DNA of 64,000 bases from assembly GCA_017541465.1 (NCBI GenBank), contig JAFXYZ010000063.1, positions 1 through 64,000 of the forward strand, given 5' to 3'. The position numbers and the translations under genes are program-made. Shown in pieces: positions 7,501-63,576 of the stretch. Position 1 is the first letter of the stretch, and each line of letters begins with the position of its first letter. This DNA is from a bacterium. GTDB lineage: Bacteria; Cyanobacteriota; Vampirovibrionia; Gastranaerophilales; Gastranaerophilaceae. The notes beneath the pieces are model-generated. The model had not been told where the DNA came from and did not search any database. It worked only from the letters and a program-made list of their open reading frames with translations.

Positions 7501-9806
7501 ATAACTTGTGAACCCGAGGTGGAATTTTCCCAGGTACCTTTATTCACTAAGGTATTATTTACTTTAACATAATTTTGGTTGTCGATAGTCGAACCGGCAA
7601 ACATTGTCATATTATTAGCTTCAACCGAGCCCTGGTTTAACATTGTGTTTTCTTGGTTTAAATTGACCGCTGTCAGTGTAGAGGAAGTTCCTTCGTTTAT
7701 CCAGTTTCCTTTGTTAGCAAGTACACTGTTTACCTTTACACTGCCCTGATTTTGGGTATTAGAACCTGCGAAGGTGGTCATATTAGTAGCTTCAACCGAG
7801 CCCTGGTTTAACATTGTGTTTTCCTGGTTCAGGTTGGCTGCCGTTAAACTTGAAGCTGTACCACCGTTTGTCCAGTTCCCTTTATTTGCAAGTACACTGT
7901 TTACCTTTACACTGCCCTGATTTTCAGTATTTGAACCTGCAAAAGTTGTCATATAGGTTGTTTCAACAGAACCGAGATTTAACATTGAACTTTCCTGGTT
8001 CAAAGTCGAAGCCTTCAGAGATGATGAAGCGGTCGAATTTCTGAAGATACCTTTGTTTGCCAGTACATTATTAACTTTAACACTTCCCTGGTTGTCAGTG
8101 GTTGCTCCGGCATAATTTGTAAAGTCGGTTGCCGTAATTGAACCCTGGTTTAACATTGTATTTTTTTGGTTCAGTGTTGATACGATTAAACCTGAGTCAG
8201 AACCCTCGTTTATCCAGTTCCCCTCATTTGAAAGAGCATTATTTACTCTTATGCTGCCCTGGTTTTGAGTGCTTGAGCCAGAATAGGTTGAAAAATCGGT
8301 TGTAGTGACCGAACCCTGATTTAACATTTTATTCTTTTGGTTTATAGTCGATGCAGTTAAACTTGAATTAGTTCCGCCGTTAATCCAGTTTCCCTCGTTT
8401 GACAGAACATTGTTTACCTTGATACTGCCCTGATTTTCTGTTTTTGCACCTGAAAAGTTTGCAAAATCCGTTGCAGTGATTGAACCAAGGTTTAACATTT
8501 GATTTTCCTGATTCAACGATGAAACGGTCAATTTTGAAGCAGCCGTTGAGTTTGTCCAGTTTCCTTTATTTGCGAGAGTATTTGTTACATTAACATTTCC
8601 TCTGTTTTCGGTGGTTGTTCCCGCAAGAGTCGTAAAGTAATTTGCAGTTACAGAACCCTTGTTCAGCAATGAACCTTCCTGGTTTAGGTTTGAGGCTATA
8701 ATTTTTGAAATTACGGTTGAATTTTCCCAGTGTCCTTTGTTTGTCAGTGTATTATTAGCCTTTATACTTCCCTCATTTATTGTAGTTGAACCAAGAAAGG
8801 TATTCATGTCATTTGTTACCACCGAACCTCTGTTGAACAGAGAATTTTCCTGATTAAAAGTATGTGCCGTTATTGTTGAATCAGTCGAGGAGTTTATCCA
8901 GTTTCCTTTGTTTACCAATACGTTGTTTGCTGTTATATTCTTTTGGTTTTCGGTATATGAGCCCGTAAAAGTTGTAATATAGTCAGCTATAATTGTGCCC
9001 TGGTTAAGAAGTGAACCCTCCTGATTCAGATTTGGAGTATTAATTGAGGAAGCGGAAGTGCCGTTTGTCCATGCGCCTTTATTTGCAAGAACATGAGTTA
9101 CCGTAACACCGCCCTGGTTTTCGGTGGTAGAACCTGTATAAGTCGAAAAATCACCTGCAACTATAGAGCCCTGATTAATCATTGAGTTTTTCTGGTTGAG
9201 AGTTGAAGCATTTATCGAGGAAGAAGTTCCTCCATTTGTCCAGTTACCTTCATTAGAGAGGGCATGATTGACAGTAACACCGCCCTGGTTTTCGGTAGTC
9301 GAACCCGTATAAGTTGAAAAATCAACCGATACAACCGAACCCTGGTTTAACATTGAGCCTTTTTGGTTAAGAGTTGAAGCATTTACAGAGGAGTCTGTTC
9401 CCCCGTTTATCCACTGTCCCTGGTTTAAGAGGGCATGTGTTACGGTTATATTACTTTGGTTTTCCGTTTTTGAACCCGAATAGGTTGAAAAATCGGTTGT
9501 TACCGTTGTCCCGAGGTTTAACAAATTTCCCTGCTGATTAAGTACCGCTGCATTTATAGAGGAAGCTATGGTTGAATTTGACCAGCTCCCCTGATTTGCA
9601 AGTACACTCAGCGCGGTAACATCAGAGTTATTAGTCATTTTTGCACCAACGACAGTCGTGATGTTATTCGCAACAACAGCAGAATTGTTTGTCTGATTAC
9701 CTGTTATTACTATATCCTCTGCATTAACTATATCTGCGCTCATCAGTAAATATACGGAAATCTGAACGGCTGCAAGCAGAGGCTTTATATAATTCTTCTT
9801 ACTCAT
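4569..9806 (-). CDS. Giant repeat autotransporter (type V secretion)
   Basis: A 1745-residue surface protein. Residues 1-29 are a Sec signal peptide. Residues 37-89 are a degenerate repeat, and 90-887 are fourteen near-identical 57-residue repeats with a core like NQENxMLNQGSV...NQGSVKVN...NKGNW.N, rich in Asn, Ser, Thr and Gly and predicted to build a beta-helix. About 888-1440 is more diverged beta-helix. About 1460-1715 is the C-terminal beta-barrel, beginning near GLWAKGYGGYDKL and ending with VVNFKLG. Unusually, a roughly 30-residue Lys-rich tail follows the last barrel strand, where classic autotransporters stop. Such proteins are adhesins or surface-layer factors. The start ATG at 9806 is supported by the signal peptide. 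No protease or other catalytic motif was seen in the passenger. Confidence 0.9.
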   Translation of the reverse strand: MSKKNYIKPLLAAVQISVYLLMSADIVNAEDIVITGNQTNNSAVVANNITTVVGAKMTNNSDVTALSVLANQGSWSNSTIASSINAAVLNQQGNLLNLGTTVTTDFSTYSGSKTENQSNITVTHALLNQGQWINGGTDSSVNASTLNQKGSMLNQGSVVSVDFSTYTGSTTENQGGVTVNHALSNEGNWTNGGTSSSINASTLNQKNSMINQGSIVAGDFSTYTGSTTENQGGVTVTHVLANKGAWTNGTSASSINTPNLNQEGSLLNQGTIIADYITTFTGSYTENQKNITANNVLVNKGNWINSSTDSTITAHTFNQENSLFNRGSVVTNDMNTFLGSTTINEGSIKANNTLTNKGHWENSTVISKIIASNLNQEGSLLNKGSVTANYFTTLAGTTTENRGNVNVTNTLANKGNWTNSTAASKLTVSSLNQENQMLNLGSITATDFANFSGAKTENQGSIKVNNVLSNEGNWINGGTNSSLTASTINQKNKMLNQGSVTTTDFSTYSGSSTQNQGSIRVNNALSNEGNWINEGSDSGLIVSTLNQKNTMLNQGSITATDFTNYAGATTDNQGSVKVNNVLANKGIFRNSTASSSLKASTLNQESSMLNLGSVETTYMTTFAGSNTENQGSVKVNSVLANKGNWTNGGTASSLTAANLNQENTMLNQGSVEATNMTTFAGSNTQNQGSVKVNSVLANKGNWINEGTSSTLTAVNLNQENTMLNQGSVEANNMTMFAGSTIDNQNYVKVNNTLVNKGTWENSTSGSQVIAANLNQESSLLNRGSVLATNMTTFAGSTTDNQNSVVVNNTLSNKGSWTNSNPASTLTVSSLNQENSMINKGSIQATSINTFAGSTTDNQRSINVNNAFVNRGTFTNSTTTSTLTAAALNNEAAADFINYGRVGSSDHHVININNKSGAASFINNGTGKIYATTFKNDSTVENQLGGYIYSDNFINNNTLENNGTVDVIIQFTNPSGASVTNNGAEGEGTLNILRGTNDSAITQGNLTISNGGAFYNNSGGTLNIETTLQNSGLITNSNVINVQNSTNDANLINDYIIRTVSGVVNADTMTTNDNSVMTLTDSQLTLAYQAGDINGAINILGSSNTDLTITGASTNIAGRLNVGSGGTTPVLNLYSGNVTKNAVVGITRGSVVNIDDSAGPGTSSMVIDGGDAWLGDINNISGSFELDGNSVNTGSTSTTAGGRKTYYKQTGGNFTMKNATLTMDDSSLISGGSMFLDGGSRFNSKALGFTVSDLQTAGVINAINGTYETYTPNNNFIIGTTGDGRADFTTDLYARSSGSAKYDKFGSSTSVLSAGGASRHGIINLSDYKIYGDMYGADAPIDKDIMLDIFEYGSVKAGDRIDFTATKKQVATAVGNYGIISRGDGKYSFSLLSYNPKVFRGQVTTLAQYQNQLVISDLLFNHTFVNNGFKGNDILSYNPNAYASSGDLYAPYQYSLKNGGLWAKGYGGYDKLKLTSADVDAGYYGTLVGADFGLKKLKRGWEFLPTAYMGYNGALQRWEGIKAYQNGAQLGFLGTWYKKDFIIGTMAYGGMYNNRINTPRETDDTFGYFMGASAKAAYNWKIKRDFSLQPNLMFSYNFFGKQNWSSSFGQMDMQTGILNGFNIAPGLNFIWEKETFSIYATLQYMLGLNGGVDGQAGNINLPEQKMEGNGYLQYGLGINKKLFSDRFSIYGQAVFRNLARTGIGVQTVVNFKLGKSQKKAKTKKISKQKKQKTKVKAVEKAEEQKE
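7146..9539 (-). repeat. Fourteen tandem 171-bp coding repeats
   Basis: Inside the autotransporter gene, residues 90-887 consist of exactly fourteen 57-codon units without indels between them. Units are diverged at DNA level but several (for example units 10 and 11) are very similar, so recombination could change copy number. A further degenerate unit precedes them (residues 37-89). Confidence 0.85.
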
Positions 9807-9893
9807 AAAAAAAAATTCTCTTATTCCAAAACCATTTTTATAGTAGCAAGAAAAATTATTGTAAGCAATAAAATATATGATAATATAATAAGT

Positions 9894-11246
9894 ATGGTTA
9901 AGTTTTTTAAAAGATTATATGATTTATTTTTAAATAACATTTACGAGGAAGTAATTAAATCGCCTGTCAGGATACTTCCCGCAACATTTTTAGTGCTTTG
10001 TATTTTGGGCGGAATATTGTTATATCTTCCCTGCTCAGGGGATATGACCTTTATAGATGCCCTGTTTACCTCTGTCAGCGGTGTTTGTGTTACGGGTTTG
10101 TCCGTTCAGGATATATCTTCCGAGCTGAACCTTTTCGGTCAGTTTATTCTTATGCTTTTAATTCAGGTCGGCGGTCTCGGAATTATGAGTATTTCCTCCG
10201 TCATTTTCCTTCTGCTGGGCAAAAAAATGTCCGTTACCTATGAGAAGAACGCAAGAAGTATGTTCGATGCCGAAAGCCGAGATGAAATCAAAGATTCGCT
10301 GTTTTTAATCTTTAAATACACTTTTCTAGCTGAACTTACAGGATTTATTATTTTTACCCTGAGATTTTTCTTCCTCTCTAAAGACTTCTTTTTCTCGCTG
10401 AAACAGGCATTGTTTCTTGCGATATCGAGCTTTTGTAACGCAGGTTTTGCCTTGTTCTCAGACAATCTGATTTCTTATAACAGCGATTCAGCCATACTTT
10501 TAACCGTTTCCCTTCTGATTATCGCAGGAGGTATTTCGCCCGCTATTGCAATAACCTTTCCGAAAATTTTAAAAAGAGAAAAGTTGTCGCCGATAGCAAA
10601 AATTGTGTTTGTTACGACAGCTTCATTATTAGTTCTCGGTACAATTTTTATTTTTATGACTTCTTATAACGGTGTTTTGAGCGGAATGAGCTTCTCTGAT
10701 AAACTTCTAAATGCCTGGTTTCAGTCTGTCAGCGCAAGAACTGCGGGCTTTAGTTCAATAGATTTGAGCAATTTATCCTGCGGAACATATCTTGCATTAA
10801 TAGTTCTGATGATTATAGGGGGTTCGCCAGGAGGTACTGCAGGCGGTATCAAAACCACCACCTTTGCTGTACTGGTTATTACCTCTTATAACATCTTTCT
10901 CGGAAGAAAAAATATAATAAGAAACCGCGAAATTCCGCCCGAGACGATTTATAAAGCTATTGCCTTAATATTTGTATACTTAGGGGTTATAATCGTTTCG
11001 TGCTTTATCTTATGCACAACCCAGATACTTCCGCACGCAAAACTGGTTTTTGAGGTGGTTTCCGCGATGGGTACGGTCGGATTATCAATGGGAATAACCT
11101 CTCAGCTTGATACCTTCGGGAAAATGGTTATAATAATCACGATGTTTTTAGGCAGGGTATTCCCCGCAATGATTATCTATTACCTCAATTCAAGGATAAA
11201 CGAGGTTTATCTGAGTTATCCGAAAGCCAAAATATCATTAACATAG
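9894..11246 (+). CDS. ktrB: Potassium uptake protein, TrkH/KtrB family
   Basis: A 450-residue polytopic membrane protein with the four-fold membrane/pore-loop/membrane layout of Trk/Ktr translocation subunits. The selectivity-filter glycines are in SGVCVTGLS (about residues 62-70), FCNAGFAL, ARTAGFSS and AMGTVGLSM. The size and short N-terminus fit KtrB better than TrkH. It moves K+ inward, driven by Na+ or the membrane potential, and needs a cytosolic RCK ring. The ktrA gene starts 10 bp downstream and a sensor-like protein overlaps ktrA, so the three form an operon. It is divergent from the autotransporter gene; an AT-rich TAATAT-type -10 region lies just before the start. Confidence 0.92.
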   Translation: MVKFFKRLYDLFLNNIYEEVIKSPVRILPATFLVLCILGGILLYLPCSGDMTFIDALFTSVSGVCVTGLSVQDISSELNLFGQFILMLLIQVGGLGIMSISSVIFLLLGKKMSVTYEKNARSMFDAESRDEIKDSLFLIFKYTFLAELTGFIIFTLRFFFLSKDFFFSLKQALFLAISSFCNAGFALFSDNLISYNSDSAILLTVSLLIIAGGISPAIAITFPKILKREKLSPIAKIVFVTTASLLVLGTIFIFMTSYNGVLSGMSFSDKLLNAWFQSVSARTAGFSSIDLSNLSCGTYLALIVLMIIGGSPGGTAGGIKTTTFAVLVITSYNIFLGRKNIIRNREIPPETIYKAIALIFVYLGVIIVSCFILCTTQILPHAKLVFEVVSAMGTVGLSMGITSQLDTFGKMVIIITMFLGRVFPAMIIYYLNSRINEVYLSYPKAKISLT

Positions 11247-58685: not shown

Positions 58686-58722
58686 TGTCCGATTTTGACG
58701 CAAACGGGTGGTATATTATAAA
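58686..58722 (+). promoter_or_regulatory. Promoter with recurring TGTCCGAxTxTGACG box
   Basis: TTGACG (58695-58700) and TATAAA (58717-58722) with 16 bp between them, in front of the 58750 gene. The box TGTCCGATTTTGACG (58686-58700) resembles stretches at 27241-27255, 59949-59964 and 61981-61995, all intergenic. Confidence 0.5.
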
Positions 58723-58749
58723 TATAAGACAGATAAGAGGACAGCAAAA

Positions 58750-59304: not shown

Positions 59305-59946
59305 ATGGGCATAAAAAGACTTATCGCAATAGGCGACATACACGGTGAAATTGACAAACTCAACGAACTTTTGAGGCAGTTAAAACCTCAAAAGGAAGAT
59401 ACGCTCGTGTTCCTCGGCGATTACATAGACAGGGGCAGACATTCAAAAGAGGTCGTTGAGCGCCTTATCGGGCTTTCAAAAGAAACGAACTGTATATTTT
59501 TAAAAGGAAACCACGAACAAATGCTTTTGAACCTTATCAGAACCAAAACAGAAAATGACGTGAGTTTTTGGCTCATAAACGGCGGCACTAAAACCCTCGA
59601 CAGTTATGACAATAACTTTGTTGAAATGCTCACTCTCCATGGCGAATTTTTTAAAAATTTAAAACCTTACTATCTGACGGACAAATATTTGTTTATCCAT
59701 GCAGGAATAAACCCTTCGAGGCTGCTTAATGAACAGGAGGAGGACGATTTTTTGTGGATTAGGGATAGTTTTATTAATTCAAAGCATAAACTGAAACAAA
59801 AAGTCGTTTTCGGGCATACTCCGTTTTCTGAGCCCTTCGTTCAGGAGGACAAAATCGGTATTGATACAGGGTGCGGCAAAGGGGAAGAAGGGGTTTTGAC
59901 GGCTTTAATCTGCGGCGATAAAGAAGTTTTTATTTCAAGTGAATAA
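59305..59946 (+). CDS. Calcineurin-like metallophosphoesterase (Ser/Thr phosphatase type)
   Basis: A 213-residue metal-dependent phosphatase. Motifs: GDIHGEIDKL (GDxHG, about 10-19), GDYIDRGRHS (GDxxDRG), GNHEQML (GNHE), HGEFFKN, FIHAGINP and VFGHTPF. This matches PrpA/PrpB/ApaH-like enzymes acting on phosphoproteins or dinucleotide polyphosphates in the cytoplasm. It is co-transcribed with the 58750 gene. A terminator hairpin lies at 60074-60102, after a roughly 130-bp structured interval. Confidence 0.88.
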   Translation: MGIKRLIAIGDIHGEIDKLNELLRQLKPQKEDTLVFLGDYIDRGRHSKEVVERLIGLSKETNCIFLKGNHEQMLLNLIRTKTENDVSFWLINGGTKTLDSYDNNFVEMLTLHGEFFKNLKPYYLTDKYLFIHAGINPSRLLNEQEEDDFLWIRDSFINSKHKLKQKVVFGHTPFSEPFVQEDKIGIDTGCGKGEEGVLTALICGDKEVFISSE

Positions 59947-60033
59947 ATCCGCCCGAATCTGACGCATAGGGGATGTAAGATAAAAATTAAAGGCGGGTGT
60001 TTCGCCCGGGCCACGAAAATTTAATAATGCAAG

Positions 60034-60102
60034 TTGTTTGCTTCACTTCGCTCGCAAACAATTTTCTTTAAACAAAAGCAGCCTTCAAAACGGCTGTTTT
60101 TT
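60034..60102. terminator. Hairpin plus bidirectional terminator between phosphoesterase and RT genes
   Basis: First, TTGTTTGC (60034-60041) pairs with GCAAACAA (60054-60061). Then CAGCC (60079-60083) pairs with GGCTG (60092-60096), flanked by A residues before and TTTTTT after, a working terminator in either direction. They separate the convergent phosphoesterase and reverse-transcriptase genes. Confidence 0.65.
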
Positions 60103-60157
60103 GTTGCTATAAAAAATTCGGCTGGATTCTTACGCCCTGACGGGCTCATAATGACGT

Positions 60158-61048
60158 TTATTTCATCACCTTTTTGAGTTTTTTTATCTCATCATTGTTA
60201 TAAATGGCGAATTTTCGTATCTTTGATTTAATAAATTTTTTCATTGTTTCATAAAATTTTTCATCGGTTGATTTGATGTAGGCGAGGTGTCCCATAACCT
60301 CTTTGAGCCCGACTCTCTTTTTAAAAAGTGAATTTATCCCGAGCCTTTCTTCAAGATAAACCGCCTTTAAATAGTTGAAAAACATTGCGCGGTAGTCGTG
60401 TTTTTTATCCCCCGAAATCCTGCAGTCCTCTTTATTATTGACAACAAGCCCCAAAATTTCCTGACGTTTGTTGTCCGAGGTATATTGCGTTTTCTCGTGG
60501 TTGATGTTAAACCCATTCTCCCGTAAAAGTTTTATGGCGAGCTTTTCCGCTTTTTTGAGGTCGGATTTCTTATCCCCGGAAAAGAACATATCGTCCATAT
60601 AACGAGAGTATTTGAGGTTATTTTCCTTCGCAAATGCTTTTAATTTTTTGTCGATTCCCGTTTTTTCAAACGCAAGATTAGCAAGATAGGCAGAGGTTGA
60701 AGCGCCTGTCGGAAGTTTATCATCTGCCGTCATTACGGTATAAAGCGCCCCCGGAGCATAGGCTTGCGGAAAATCAACGTTTTTGTGAATTTCCGCTATG
60801 ATACCTTTAATCTGCTCTTTTGTAAAAGATTCATAGAACTTTCTTATGTCGAGCTTCAGCACCCATTTTTGACTGCAGTGGACTTTTGCCGTTTCTTTTA
60901 TGCTGAATTTCACCTTATACTTGGTTCTGATAAAACCCAAAATGTTTCTCTGCAGGTCCTTCAGTTCTTTTGAGGGGGCATAAATGGTTCTTTTGCCGTT
61001 CCTGTAAATCTCATAGAACATATTAAAACCGATATATAATCTCTCCAT
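60158..61048 (-). CDS. Retron-like reverse transcriptase
   Basis: A 296-residue RNA-directed DNA polymerase. RT motifs: APSKELKDLQ (RT1, about 24-33), KLDIRKFYESF (motif A, 65-75, Asp67), LPTGASTSAYLANL (112-125), YMDD (150-153, both catalytic Asp), and ENGFNINHEKT (motif D). The retron marks are weak but present: TAKVH (53-57) at the NAxxH position and ILGLVVN (198-204) at the VTG position. It lacks a maturase domain and does not have the DGR-type I/LGxxxSQ motif. It is 10 bp downstream of a DnaB-like helicase gene and clearly co-transcribed. No msr-msd could be identified. AAGGA precedes ATG 61048. Confidence 0.88.
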   Translation of the reverse strand: MERLYIGFNMFYEIYRNGKRTIYAPSKELKDLQRNILGFIRTKYKVKFSIKETAKVHCSQKWVLKLDIRKFYESFTKEQIKGIIAEIHKNVDFPQAYAPGALYTVMTADDKLPTGASTSAYLANLAFEKTGIDKKLKAFAKENNLKYSRYMDDMFFSGDKKSDLKKAEKLAIKLLRENGFNINHEKTQYTSDNKRQEILGLVVNNKEDCRISGDKKHDYRAMFFNYLKAVYLEERLGINSLFKKRVGLKEVMGHLAYIKSTDEKFYETMKKFIKSKIRKFAIYNNDEIKKLKKVMK

Positions 61049-61058
61049 CTGAATATCC

Positions 61059-61871
61059 TTAATTATCCTTAAAATTTTCGTAAGTATAATCTTTAAATTT
61101 TATACGGTTAAAGAGGAGATGAACCAGTCCTGTCGGTCCGAACTCGTTTTTGCAGAAGATTACCTCGGCAAGTCCTTTGTTTGATTCATCATCGTGGTTA
61201 TAGTATTCATCACGGTAGAGCATCATAACAACGTCAGAGAGTTCTTCGAGCATACTTGAACTTCTGATGTCAAAGAGCATAGGTCTTTTGTCCAGACGGC
61301 TTTCAAGCGCTCTTGACAGCTGACTTAAAATAATAAAAATTACTCCTGTTTCTTTTGCAATTCTGTGTATTTCCTGCACCGCAAGATTGATTGAGTCGGT
61401 AAAATTCGGTGCTTTTGGCATTTTTAAAAGCTGAAGATAGTCGATAAACACAACATCAGGGGCTTCTGTTTTTATCTCTTCTTCAATATTTTCAATGGTC
61501 AAAAGAGAACTGTCATCAATAAACAAATCTTTTTGGGCGAAATATTCAACCGCATCAGAAATCTTTTTTTTAAGTTCAGGGTTTCTGTCGAGCTGAAACG
61601 GCATTATCTCAAGCTTGTGTGCTGCAAGCCTTTTTATGACATTGTTCATCGGCAGAGAGGGGGAAAACCAGCAGACCTTTTTGTTTTCTTCAAGTAAATG
61701 AGTTAAAATCGAGATTGCAAAAAATGTTTTGCCCATGCTCGGTCTTGCGCCGATTGTGAGAATAGAGCCTTTATCGACATTTTTTATAAATTCATCAATC
61801 TCCGAAAAGCCTGTCGTGAAAACAGTTTCATCTGTTTGTTTTAAAAATTCTTTCGCATCTATTTTCTTCAT
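61059..61871 (-). CDS. DnaB-like helicase core without N-terminal domain
   Basis: A 270-residue RecA-fold ATPase equal to the C-terminal domain of the replicative helicase DnaB. Walker A is GARPSMGKT (41-49), Walker B is VVFIDYLQLL (140-149), then LSQLSRALESR (182-192), DIRSSSMLEELSD (201-213) and the end KNEFGPTG (241-248). The primase-binding N-terminal domain of DnaB (about 150-180 residues) is absent. Where DnaB has FSLEM, with its catalytic Glu, this has FSPSLP, so hydrolysis may be impaired. GGAGGT 5 bases upstream supports ATG 61871. It is the first gene of the RT operon and divergent from a WYL regulator. A real DnaB should be elsewhere in the genome. Confidence 0.88.
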   Translation of the reverse strand: MKKIDAKEFLKQTDETVFTTGFSEIDEFIKNVDKGSILTIGARPSMGKTFFAISILTHLLEENKKVCWFSPSLPMNNVIKRLAAHKLEIMPFQLDRNPELKKKISDAVEYFAQKDLFIDDSSLLTIENIEEEIKTEAPDVVFIDYLQLLKMPKAPNFTDSINLAVQEIHRIAKETGVIFIILSQLSRALESRLDKRPMLFDIRSSSMLEELSDVVMMLYRDEYYNHDDESNKGLAEVIFCKNEFGPTGLVHLLFNRIKFKDYTYENFKDN

Positions 61872-61904
61872 TTTATACCTCCATAATAAAAAGTATAAAA
61901 TGGC

Positions 61905-61927
61905 ACTATGTCATTTTTGGACATAGT
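61905..61927. promoter_or_regulatory. Inverted-repeat operator between the DnaB/RT operon and the WYL regulator
   Basis: ACTATGTC (61905-61912) pairs with GACATAGT (61920-61927) around 7 nt. A third half-site, ATATGTCC, lies at 61978-61985. They are between the divergent operons, the usual place for a regulator that controls both itself and the defence operon. Confidence 0.6.
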
Positions 61928-62024
61928 TGTTTTAATAAAAATTAACTTTTTTCTTCCAAAAAAAATGTTATGATTAAATATGTCCTAATCTGTCGTATTT
62001 AAAAATTATAATGAGGTTATGAAG

Positions 62025-63011
62025 ATGGAAGATAAACCGAGATATTCAAGAGCAACCGATATTATTATGCTTATGCTTTTGATGCAGGCGAGATATGAGG
62101 GTGTCAGTCTCTCTGAAATAGAAAGTGAGTTTGGTGTTTCGAGGCGCACTGCGGAAAGAATGAGGGACAGTCTTGTTAATACGGGGCTCAATGTTGTTGA
62201 AATTGAAAGCACGAACAGTAAAAAGAAGGAAAAGCGCTGGGGATTTAACAGCGGGTATCTTACGGACATCATCAGCTTTACCCCTGAAGAAATCGCTAAC
62301 CTTGAAAAATTAAAGGAATACCAGCAAAAGCATGGAACAGAGGATAAGGAAAAGATTTTAGAAGTAACGATTAATAAAATCAGAGCTTTGAGCAGAAAGA
62401 AACTTCCGAACCTTGAAAATACACTTGAAATACTCCTTCAGACAGAAGGGTTTGCCGTTAAGCAGCAGCCAAAGTTCAGGTTTGATTTGAAAATGCTCGA
62501 AACCATAAGAGATGCGATGAAGGATAATAAGGAAATCTGTGCTAAATATGACGGCAGAGAGAAAATTCTTGCGCCCTACGGGCTGATTTACGGGAATAAG
62601 GTTTATCTCATCGGGGTTGAAGGGGGCAAAGAAACTCCCTATTGCTATCTTCTGCACAAGTTCTCGGAGGTCAAACTGACCGAAAAGACTTTTGATAAAG
62701 GCGATTTCAGTCTTGATGAGTTCTCGAAAAAATCCTTTGGGGTGTATCAGGGCGATTTAATAGACGTCAAACTTCTGTTTAAACCCTCTGCGGCAGAGGA
62801 CGTTTTGAACTATTATTTCCACTCAACCCAGAAGATGAAACAAAATGAGGACGGAAGCGTGACTGTTAAGTTTAAGGCATCTGGCGAATACGAGATTATG
62901 TGGCACCTGTTCCGCTGGGGGACTGATGTAAAAATCCTTGCCCCTTCCGGTTTAAGGAAAAAATATATTGAACTCTTAGAGATGACACTTGAAAACCAAA
63001 AGGAAAAATAA
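62025..63011 (+). CDS. WYL-domain transcriptional regulator (HTH-WYL)
   Basis: A 328-residue regulator. An N-terminal helix-turn-helix (about 25-45, GVSRRTAERMRDSL) is followed by a spacer helix region and the WYL domain (about 155-240; ICAKYDGREKILAPYGLIYGNKVYLIGV), then the WCX extension to the end, where the RWGTDVKIL motif lies. WYL regulators sense nucleic acids or nucleotides and control defence islands such as BREX (BrxR) and CBASS (CapW). GAGG stands 8 bases before ATG 62025, which is why I prefer it over ATG 62019. It is divergent from the DnaB/RT operon and precedes, by one base, a His-rich protein gene. Confidence 0.9.
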   Translation: MEDKPRYSRATDIIMLMLLMQARYEGVSLSEIESEFGVSRRTAERMRDSLVNTGLNVVEIESTNSKKKEKRWGFNSGYLTDIISFTPEEIANLEKLKEYQQKHGTEDKEKILEVTINKIRALSRKKLPNLENTLEILLQTEGFAVKQQPKFRFDLKMLETIRDAMKDNKEICAKYDGREKILAPYGLIYGNKVYLIGVEGGKETPYCYLLHKFSEVKLTEKTFDKGDFSLDEFSKKSFGVYQGDLIDVKLLFKPSAAEDVLNYYFHSTQKMKQNEDGSVTVKFKASGEYEIMWHLFRWGTDVKILAPSGLRKKYIELLEMTLENQKEK

Positions 63012-63012
63012 G

Positions 63013-63576
63013 ATGGATAATGAAATTAAACATATTTTAGAAGGGGTAAAAGACGGGGATAAGGTTTTAAATTATATTGAAGCGCTTGAAGAACATCTTG
63101 AACACCACCATCACCACCACGACGGCGAATGTGACTGCGGAGATGACTGCCATTGTCATGACCACGATGACGAGGAAAGCGAATGGGAGGAAATTAAAAC
63201 TCCTTATGAAAATAAATTAACGGTTAAAGAGTGGGAAGAATTTCTTAAAAACGATAAAATCTTTACCGAAGATGCTTTAAAGTTAGTCAAAAGGATGAGG
63301 CATATCGCAGCGCCCGTGAGTTATATGGAACTCGCTGATACTTTCGGTCTAGGGGCTATGTATTACGGCATTGAAAGTTGTAAATTGGCGATTAAACTTG
63401 TATCTTTTGTCAATACGGATAATTTAAAAGAAGAGGATTATTGGGCAATAATTTTCAATGCGTGGAAGAGCAAAAGGGAATATGAAACGGAAATTTATGC
63501 CCTGCGTCCTGAACTCTATGAAGCCCTCGGGAATGTTGATTTGTCAAAAGTTCCACTGAGAGAAAACGAGATATAA
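63013..63576 (+). CDS. Natural His6/Cys-rich protein with McrB-associated-type domain
   Basis: A 187-residue protein. The first 30 residues are helical; residues 31-36 are HHHHHH, then DGECDCGDDCHCHDHDD, a metal-binding stretch with His, Cys and Asp in alternation. The C-terminal domain (about 75-187), ALKLVKRMRHIAAPVSYMELAD ... EDYWAIIFNAWKSK ... YALRPELYEALGNVDLSKVP, resembles the helical domain that precedes McrB-type restriction ATPases in my memory. Its ATG is one base from the WYL stop (AAGGAAAAATAAG), so it is coupled to that regulator. A metal-sensing defence component is a reasonable guess, not proven. Confidence 0.65.
   Translation: MDNEIKHILEGVKDGDKVLNYIEALEEHLEHHHHHHDGECDCGDDCHCHDHDDEESEWEEIKTPYENKLTVKEWEEFLKNDKIFTEDALKLVKRMRHIAAPVSYMELADTFGLGAMYYGIESCKLAIKLVSFVNTDNLKEEDYWAIIFNAWKSKREYETEIYALRPELYEALGNVDLSKVPLRENEI

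Follow-up and report, generated by a model that had tools for sequence, protein, structure and literature searches.

A retron-like reverse transcriptase with a DnaB-core partner and a convergent structured RNA in Gastranaerophilales: a candidate for an undescribed kind of phage defence

Described defence reverse transcriptases and the layout of the locus

Retrons keep a toxic effector silent through a reverse transcriptase (RT) and its RT-DNA until phage disturbance (PMC12548924), and genes linked to a retron can function independently of its RT, as those of Retron-Sda1 do (PMC12548924). They have been divided by effector and operon into 13 types (PMC12548924) and elsewhere into sixteen subtypes (PMC13405049), and the effector classes named in these two papers include no DnaB-type helicase. 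Retron-Eco8 is reported to sense phage SSB through its msDNA (PMC13158370). DRT2, DRT9 and DRT10 are reported to combine a defence RT with an ncRNA (PMC11100668, PMC12489045, PMC12632851). No description of these three with a DnaB-like partner was found in the literature. The same holds for any retron or defence RT with a DnaB-type partner, in a search that did not take in the founding retron classification; a preliminary description of the present locus had likewise known of no such system.

The window analyzed here is a stretch of 64,000 nucleotides (positions 1-64,000 of JAFXYZ010000063.1, GCA_017541465.1) from a member of the Gastranaerophilaceae (Vampirovibrionia, Cyanobacteriota), gut-dwelling relatives of the cyanobacteria. 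The preliminary description had placed an RT and a DnaB-like gene side by side on one strand, and ORF checking agreed: both are intact, on the minus strand, with 10 bp between them. The WYL regulator and DUF262 (GmrSD) neighbors that it named were recovered by Pfam and PADLOC. It had overlooked a structured ncRNA at 59979-60106 and a common operator. The locus looks like an undescribed kind of phage defence, which may work through a block to DNA replication. Its features are as follows:

59960..59981, plus strand: predicted ncRNA promoter with a weak operator-like TGACG and a -10 TAAGAT, read from the sequence
59979..60106, plus strand: structured ncRNA, convergent with the RT gene (alignment, covariation, covariance model)
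59992-60012, plus strand: ncRNA hairpin SL1, with its UUU triloop at 60000-60002
60025-60070, plus strand: ncRNA hairpin SL2, variable
60071-60105, plus strand: ncRNA hairpin SL3, terminator-like
60158..61048, minus strand: retron-like RT, 296 aa, YMDD (RVT_1, PADLOC, PDB profile, Foldseek, tree)
61059..61871, minus strand: DnaB C-terminal (RecA-like) core protein, 270 aa (DnaB_C, profile match, AF2, residue counts)
61892..61928, minus strand: promoter of the DnaB-RT operon, predicted from the sequence (-10 TATACT), with palindromic operator ACTATGTC-N7-GACATAGT
61979..62012, plus strand: operator-like TATGTC..TGTCGTA with TATAAT, 5′ of the WYL gene, picked out by eye without statistics
62019..63011, plus strand: divergent WYL/WCX transcriptional regulator (Pfam WCX 7.2e-14, WYL 4.1e-05)
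62989..63576, plus strand: His-rich 195-aa protein following the WYL gene, no family match

The reverse transcriptase and its linkage to a DnaB-like gene

The RT matches Pfam RVT_1 (E=2.7e-18), and the alignment places its YMDD at residues 150-153, where it had first been reported; the DD of this catalytic motif is invariant across the clade, YMDD being the form in the window. Many PADLOC retron RT profiles match, with RT_II-A the best at 160 bits and III-A a close second. Most comparison retron RTs reach 250-560 bits on their best PADLOC profile, two viral ones just 145 and 210, so the RT cannot be assigned to a known retron type; on the NCBIfam retron St85 model it scores 159, under the cut-off of 235. 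Retron type II-A Ec86 (Eco1) is its closest relative by sequence, profile and fold: Ec86 was the top hit of a PDB profile search (1.1e-38), the best 14 sequence matches were retron RTs throughout, and Foldseek returned Ec86 as the best fold match. Eco8 RT is more distant than Ec86 RT, and the DRT enzymes far more so (Drt3a 3e-12, Drt2 1e-9). By NCBIfam, PDB profile and Foldseek the RT was not closest to a group II intron, DGR or DRT family. The RT clade was monophyletic (SH-aLRT 97) in a rapidly built tree that covered retron-like RTs, had long branches and included no group II or DRT outgroup. A grouping with group II introns, raised at the outset as a competing outcome, was thus not seen in PDB profile, fold or tree, and retron RTs are its nearest relatives in each of the three. 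Unlike Ec86, it has NAXXH and VTG altered. In region X the A and H of NAXXH are invariant (26/26) and the N is found in 0/26, as in the validated outlier retrons Ec48 and Mx65, which also lack it (PMC6868368); in region Y the clade has (I/V/L)LG in 26/26 and VTG in none.

A DnaB-like gene lies immediately upstream of the RT in 36/36 clade copies, a rate far above chance, and these copies occur in 33/383 host-family genomes, so the linkage on which the idea of a cassette depended is conserved. In Ec86, too, the partner gene is upstream of the RT. The clade is sharply bounded: in the scan of the 383 genomes its RTs scored at least 317 bits and all others at most 154. In a set of 146 relatives, each of the six best-matching RTs, one of them the window RT, had a short DnaB gene directly upstream, and remoter RTs did not. 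When 84,980 species genomes were scanned with the RT profile, the matches listed included 28 loci at E<=2e-41, with a DnaB-like gene in 28/28, and 52 further genome RTs with none inside the fetched flanks; none was seen inside the fetched flanks of 12 viral RTs from a separate profile scan either, giving 0/64 for remoter retron-type RTs among the matches listed. The clade loci belong to Candidatus Gastranaerophilales, and class and phylum samples yielded no RT-DnaB member outside the host family. The two ORFs nearly touch or overlap across loci, and each evolves under purifying selection (dN/dS 0.11-0.27). Sequence distances among the RTs closely track those among the DnaB-like proteins (Mantel r 0.96, 0/2000 permutations). 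The RT and DnaB-like genes co-diversify.

DnaB-like proteins are common in phages, and the preliminary description had offered a replication module of a mobile element as its alternative. This now appears extremely improbable: the pair was found in 0/12 viral contigs picked up by the RT profile, no rep or primase-like partner is conserved across 29 loci, and the ATPase motifs are decayed. A single-sequence RT query against viral contigs found no RT relative.

In-frame stops were flagged in several RTs and were mostly the natural stop, with a real internal TAG in G077 alone (L050), where relatives have Trp. At L079 there is a frameshift in the C-terminal part of the DnaB-like gene and no ncRNA. 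These two loci are apparently decayed copies or assembly errors. Two divergent RT-DnaB-ncRNA copies (L091 and L102) lie ~9 kb apart in one island on the same contig (G249:C4).

The DnaB-like protein matches Pfam DnaB_C (E=1.2e-53) and DnaB in a profile search (1.5e-70) and has no N-terminal domain, as had been recognized. Its AF2 model (pLDDT 87.7) has a confident RecA-like core with the DnaB-like replicative helicase 3bgw as top fold match; a short N-terminal helix ahead of the core may, in our reading of the model, take the place of DnaB's linker helix. It shares with replicative DnaB the RecA-like C-terminal core and both Walker motifs (A and B), and is about 40% (~38-40%) identical to host-family DnaB cores. 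Unlike replicative DnaB, it lacks the N-terminal domain and often the catalytic Glu and arginine finger. In the window protein all three of these traits are absent, Ser replacing the catalytic Glu and Glu standing at the arginine-finger position. The FSPSLP for FSLEM substitution noted earlier was confirmed; the host's own chromosomal DnaB is encoded separately (contig C18) and keeps FSLEM and KHRNG, with both catalytic Glu and arginine finger. Residue counts over 29 DnaB-like proteins gave catalytic Glu in 14/29, arginine finger in 4/29 and, in line with the Walker motifs first noted in the window protein, Walker A/B in 29/29; Q184, R192 and Y223 are also invariant.

These residues bear on what the protein does. 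A helicase brake is plausible from the sequence of the window protein, which has neither the catalytic Glu nor the arginine finger; since roughly half of the DnaB-like proteins still have this Glu, poisoning by a dead subunit would not be general in its simple form. Judged by its motifs, the protein would be a nucleotide-binding, hydrolysis-impaired ring subunit and a good candidate for DnaB poisoning. It might instead assist the RT as an ATP-dependent ring or clamp that handles the ncRNA or the DNA copied from it, in which case the active agent would be the nucleic-acid product. The invariant Walker A/B, Q184, R192 and Y223, the near-overlap of the two genes and a modeled DnaB fold that could bind ssDNA would fit such a role, but the catalytic Glu and the arginine finger vary freely from member to member, unlike in a conserved motor, and retrons are normally paired with an effector; we regard it as unlikely. 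Less likely still is a decoy or sensor, bound by phage loaders or inhibitors of host DnaB and thereby triggered. The identity to host-family cores, the retained DnaB fold and the dispensable catalytic residues speak for a decoy, but the N-terminal domain is missing, which in DnaB is a docking site of primase, and no separate effector gene is conserved across all loci.

One short DnaB_C protein without an RT (L073:6597-7430) has its nearest relatives among the RT-linked DnaB-like proteins (45% to G076). Its gene is preceded by PDDEXK-like, EVE/AAA_5 and McrBC-family genes, with a WYL gene near (L073:756-5999, 8957-9991), and it is the only such case among 288 genomes.

The convergent ncRNA and the common operator

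In most loci an ncRNA of ~125 nt with three hairpins is encoded a short way downstream of the RT gene, on the other strand. Its base pairs covary (score 0.362 vs 0.201 when shuffled, with 0/500 shuffles as high and at most 0.138 in slid-alignment controls), and pairs with both sides changed occupy 34 cells vs 10.4 in shuffles. Wobble pairs favor the strand opposite the RT (22 vs 7), with a p of 0.008 that is optimistic because the ncRNA sequences are related. SL1 has an NUU triloop in 22/23 ncRNAs, UUU in the window, and so resembles the msr hairpin of Ec86, where the stem bound by region Y is capped by a UUU loop (PMC6868368).

The covariance model scores the window ncRNA at 82.1 bits and also found it adjoining the RT in 8 divergent loci kept out of model building (L049, 36.9 bits; L093, 84; L211, 70; L214, 71; L224, 56; L228, 52.5; L229, 51; L230, 63.5), at L093 beyond an inserted ORF. 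It is present in 31/35 family-genome copies with downstream sequence; next to the RTs of L079, L082, L216 and L223 the model recognized none. The model matched none of 64 other retron loci, and Rfam gave chance, sub-threshold matches only. Model matches under ~32 bits in relatives were taken as chance, and one of 35.9 bits (G100) is a terminator that follows a gene of no relation to the system.

The arrangement is not that of a conventional retron. An msr-msd upstream on the RT strand is not what was found, and one placed 5′ of the DnaB-like gene or between the two genes was rejected because the gaps are often too short, leaving no consistent room. Within flank limits set in this analysis, a1/a2 complementarity of the ncRNA ends did not exceed chance, at -9.5 kcal/mol for cognate and -9.3 for shuffled pairs. 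The absence of a1/a2, the terminator-like SL3 and the few loci without ncRNA (4/35) would suit an unrelated regulatory RNA or terminator, with RT and DnaB working without it. We consider that very unlikely: SL1 is conserved with covariation and its NUU triloop, the ncRNA has its own promoter with the common operator, strong model matches occur only beside the RT clade, and L093 has kept it past the inserted ORF. The earlier suggestion that phage nucleic acid is what the RT senses or copies found no support, since a dedicated covarying ncRNA adjoins the RT, as for a retron-type template.

A lone ncRNA-like element (L225:2285-2435; G080:C97:53284-53434, minus strand; 39.5 bits) has SL1, a ~24-bp hairpin and a terminator, and lies far from its own genome's RT-DnaB locus, which has no adjacent ncRNA. 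It could be a trans-encoded ncRNA or a chance match.

A palindromic operator, TATG(T/A)C-N5-TGAC(A/G)TA, occupies a similar position in DnaB and ncRNA promoters, in 18/29 of the former, 15/24 of the latter and both promoters in 11 loci, with a shuffled expectation of <0.1 per promoter set (about 0.1 for the DnaB set). The window has a perfect copy at the DnaB promoter and, at the ncRNA promoter, a degenerate one that the scan did not match. A WYL homologue lies inside the fetched flanks in 20/29 loci, and the WYL regulator probably controls both the DnaB-RT operon and the ncRNA through the common operator, to which we infer that it binds; the operator-like site at 61979..62012 would make autoregulation possible. 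The 195-aa His-rich protein, unmatched in Pfam, PADLOC and further family searches, has a homologue next to WYL in L082 as well, and may be an optional accessory.

A proposed replication-stopping system and its surroundings

On balance we favor, with somewhat better than even confidence, a three-part system of retron-like RT, ncRNA and DnaB-core effector that stops replication when freed. Its directly supported elements are the kinship of the RT, the fixed RT-DnaB linkage, the structure and linkage of the ncRNA, the common operator and selection. The RT would copy part of its dedicated ncRNA, SL1 serving as an msr-like recognition hairpin and SL2 as the likely copied part. By analogy with retrons, the RT and its nucleic-acid product (presumptively msDNA) would keep the DnaB-like partner silent by sequestration; phage disturbance of the complex would be the trigger that frees it, and the freed protein would stop replication, which would constitute the defence. 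Most simply, a catalytically crippled ring subunit could co-assemble with replicative DnaB or displace it. The WYL regulator would probably set expression of operon and ncRNA via the common operator. This reading, akin to a toxin-antitoxin system, is favored because retrons silence toxic effectors and because a crippled ring subunit suits DnaB poisoning. Against it count the lack of a1/a2, the changed VTG and NAXXH, the four loci with no ncRNA beside the RT, the catalytic Glu retained in 14/29 members and the precedent of Retron-Sda1 (PMC12548924). More tentatively, and with the odds against it, the locus may represent a new class of RT immunity, in which a convergent ncRNA with a promoter of its own and no a1/a2 restrains a decayed helicase subunit; once freed, this subunit would enter the DnaB ring of host or phage and arrest the fork. 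A different mode of priming is possible since the ncRNA lacks a1/a2 ends.

The three-part system is best read as retron-like with a new effector class. We do not class it as a canonical retron because it departs from that type in VTG, a1/a2 and ncRNA position. Compared with Ec86, the effector is a DnaB core (DnaB_C; PADLOC matched no retron effector in the locus), the ncRNA is downstream and antisense, and the PADLOC score is only 160 bits. Nor was any retron or defence RT whose ncRNA forms a separate convergent gene without a1/a2 found in the literature. With Retron-Eco8 (PMC13158370) the proposed reading would share replication-linked sensing coupled to an effector, although the effector is another; with DRT2, DRT9 and DRT10 the locus shares the pairing of RT and ncRNA. 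If the reading is correct, a replication-targeting effector class would be added to defence RTs, 'pseudo-DnaB' proteins would gain a defence function, and the question would arise of how an RT primes without a1/a2.

Defence genes neighboring the system across loci include DUF262, IetA, PDDEXK_4/PDC-S26 and McrBC. Past the window, an IetA-like AAA ATPase gene adjoins the DUF262 gene (L052:7577-9571; contig C27 ~65576-67570), and IetA-like homologues also stand beside RT-DnaB in L084, L085, L087, L089 and L094. At 58686-58740 in the window, an operator-like TGTCCGATTTTGACG with a -10 lies ahead of a 193-aa gene at 58708, and the next gene (59305-59946) encodes a NinI-like phosphatase; these two genes possibly belong to the same regulon.
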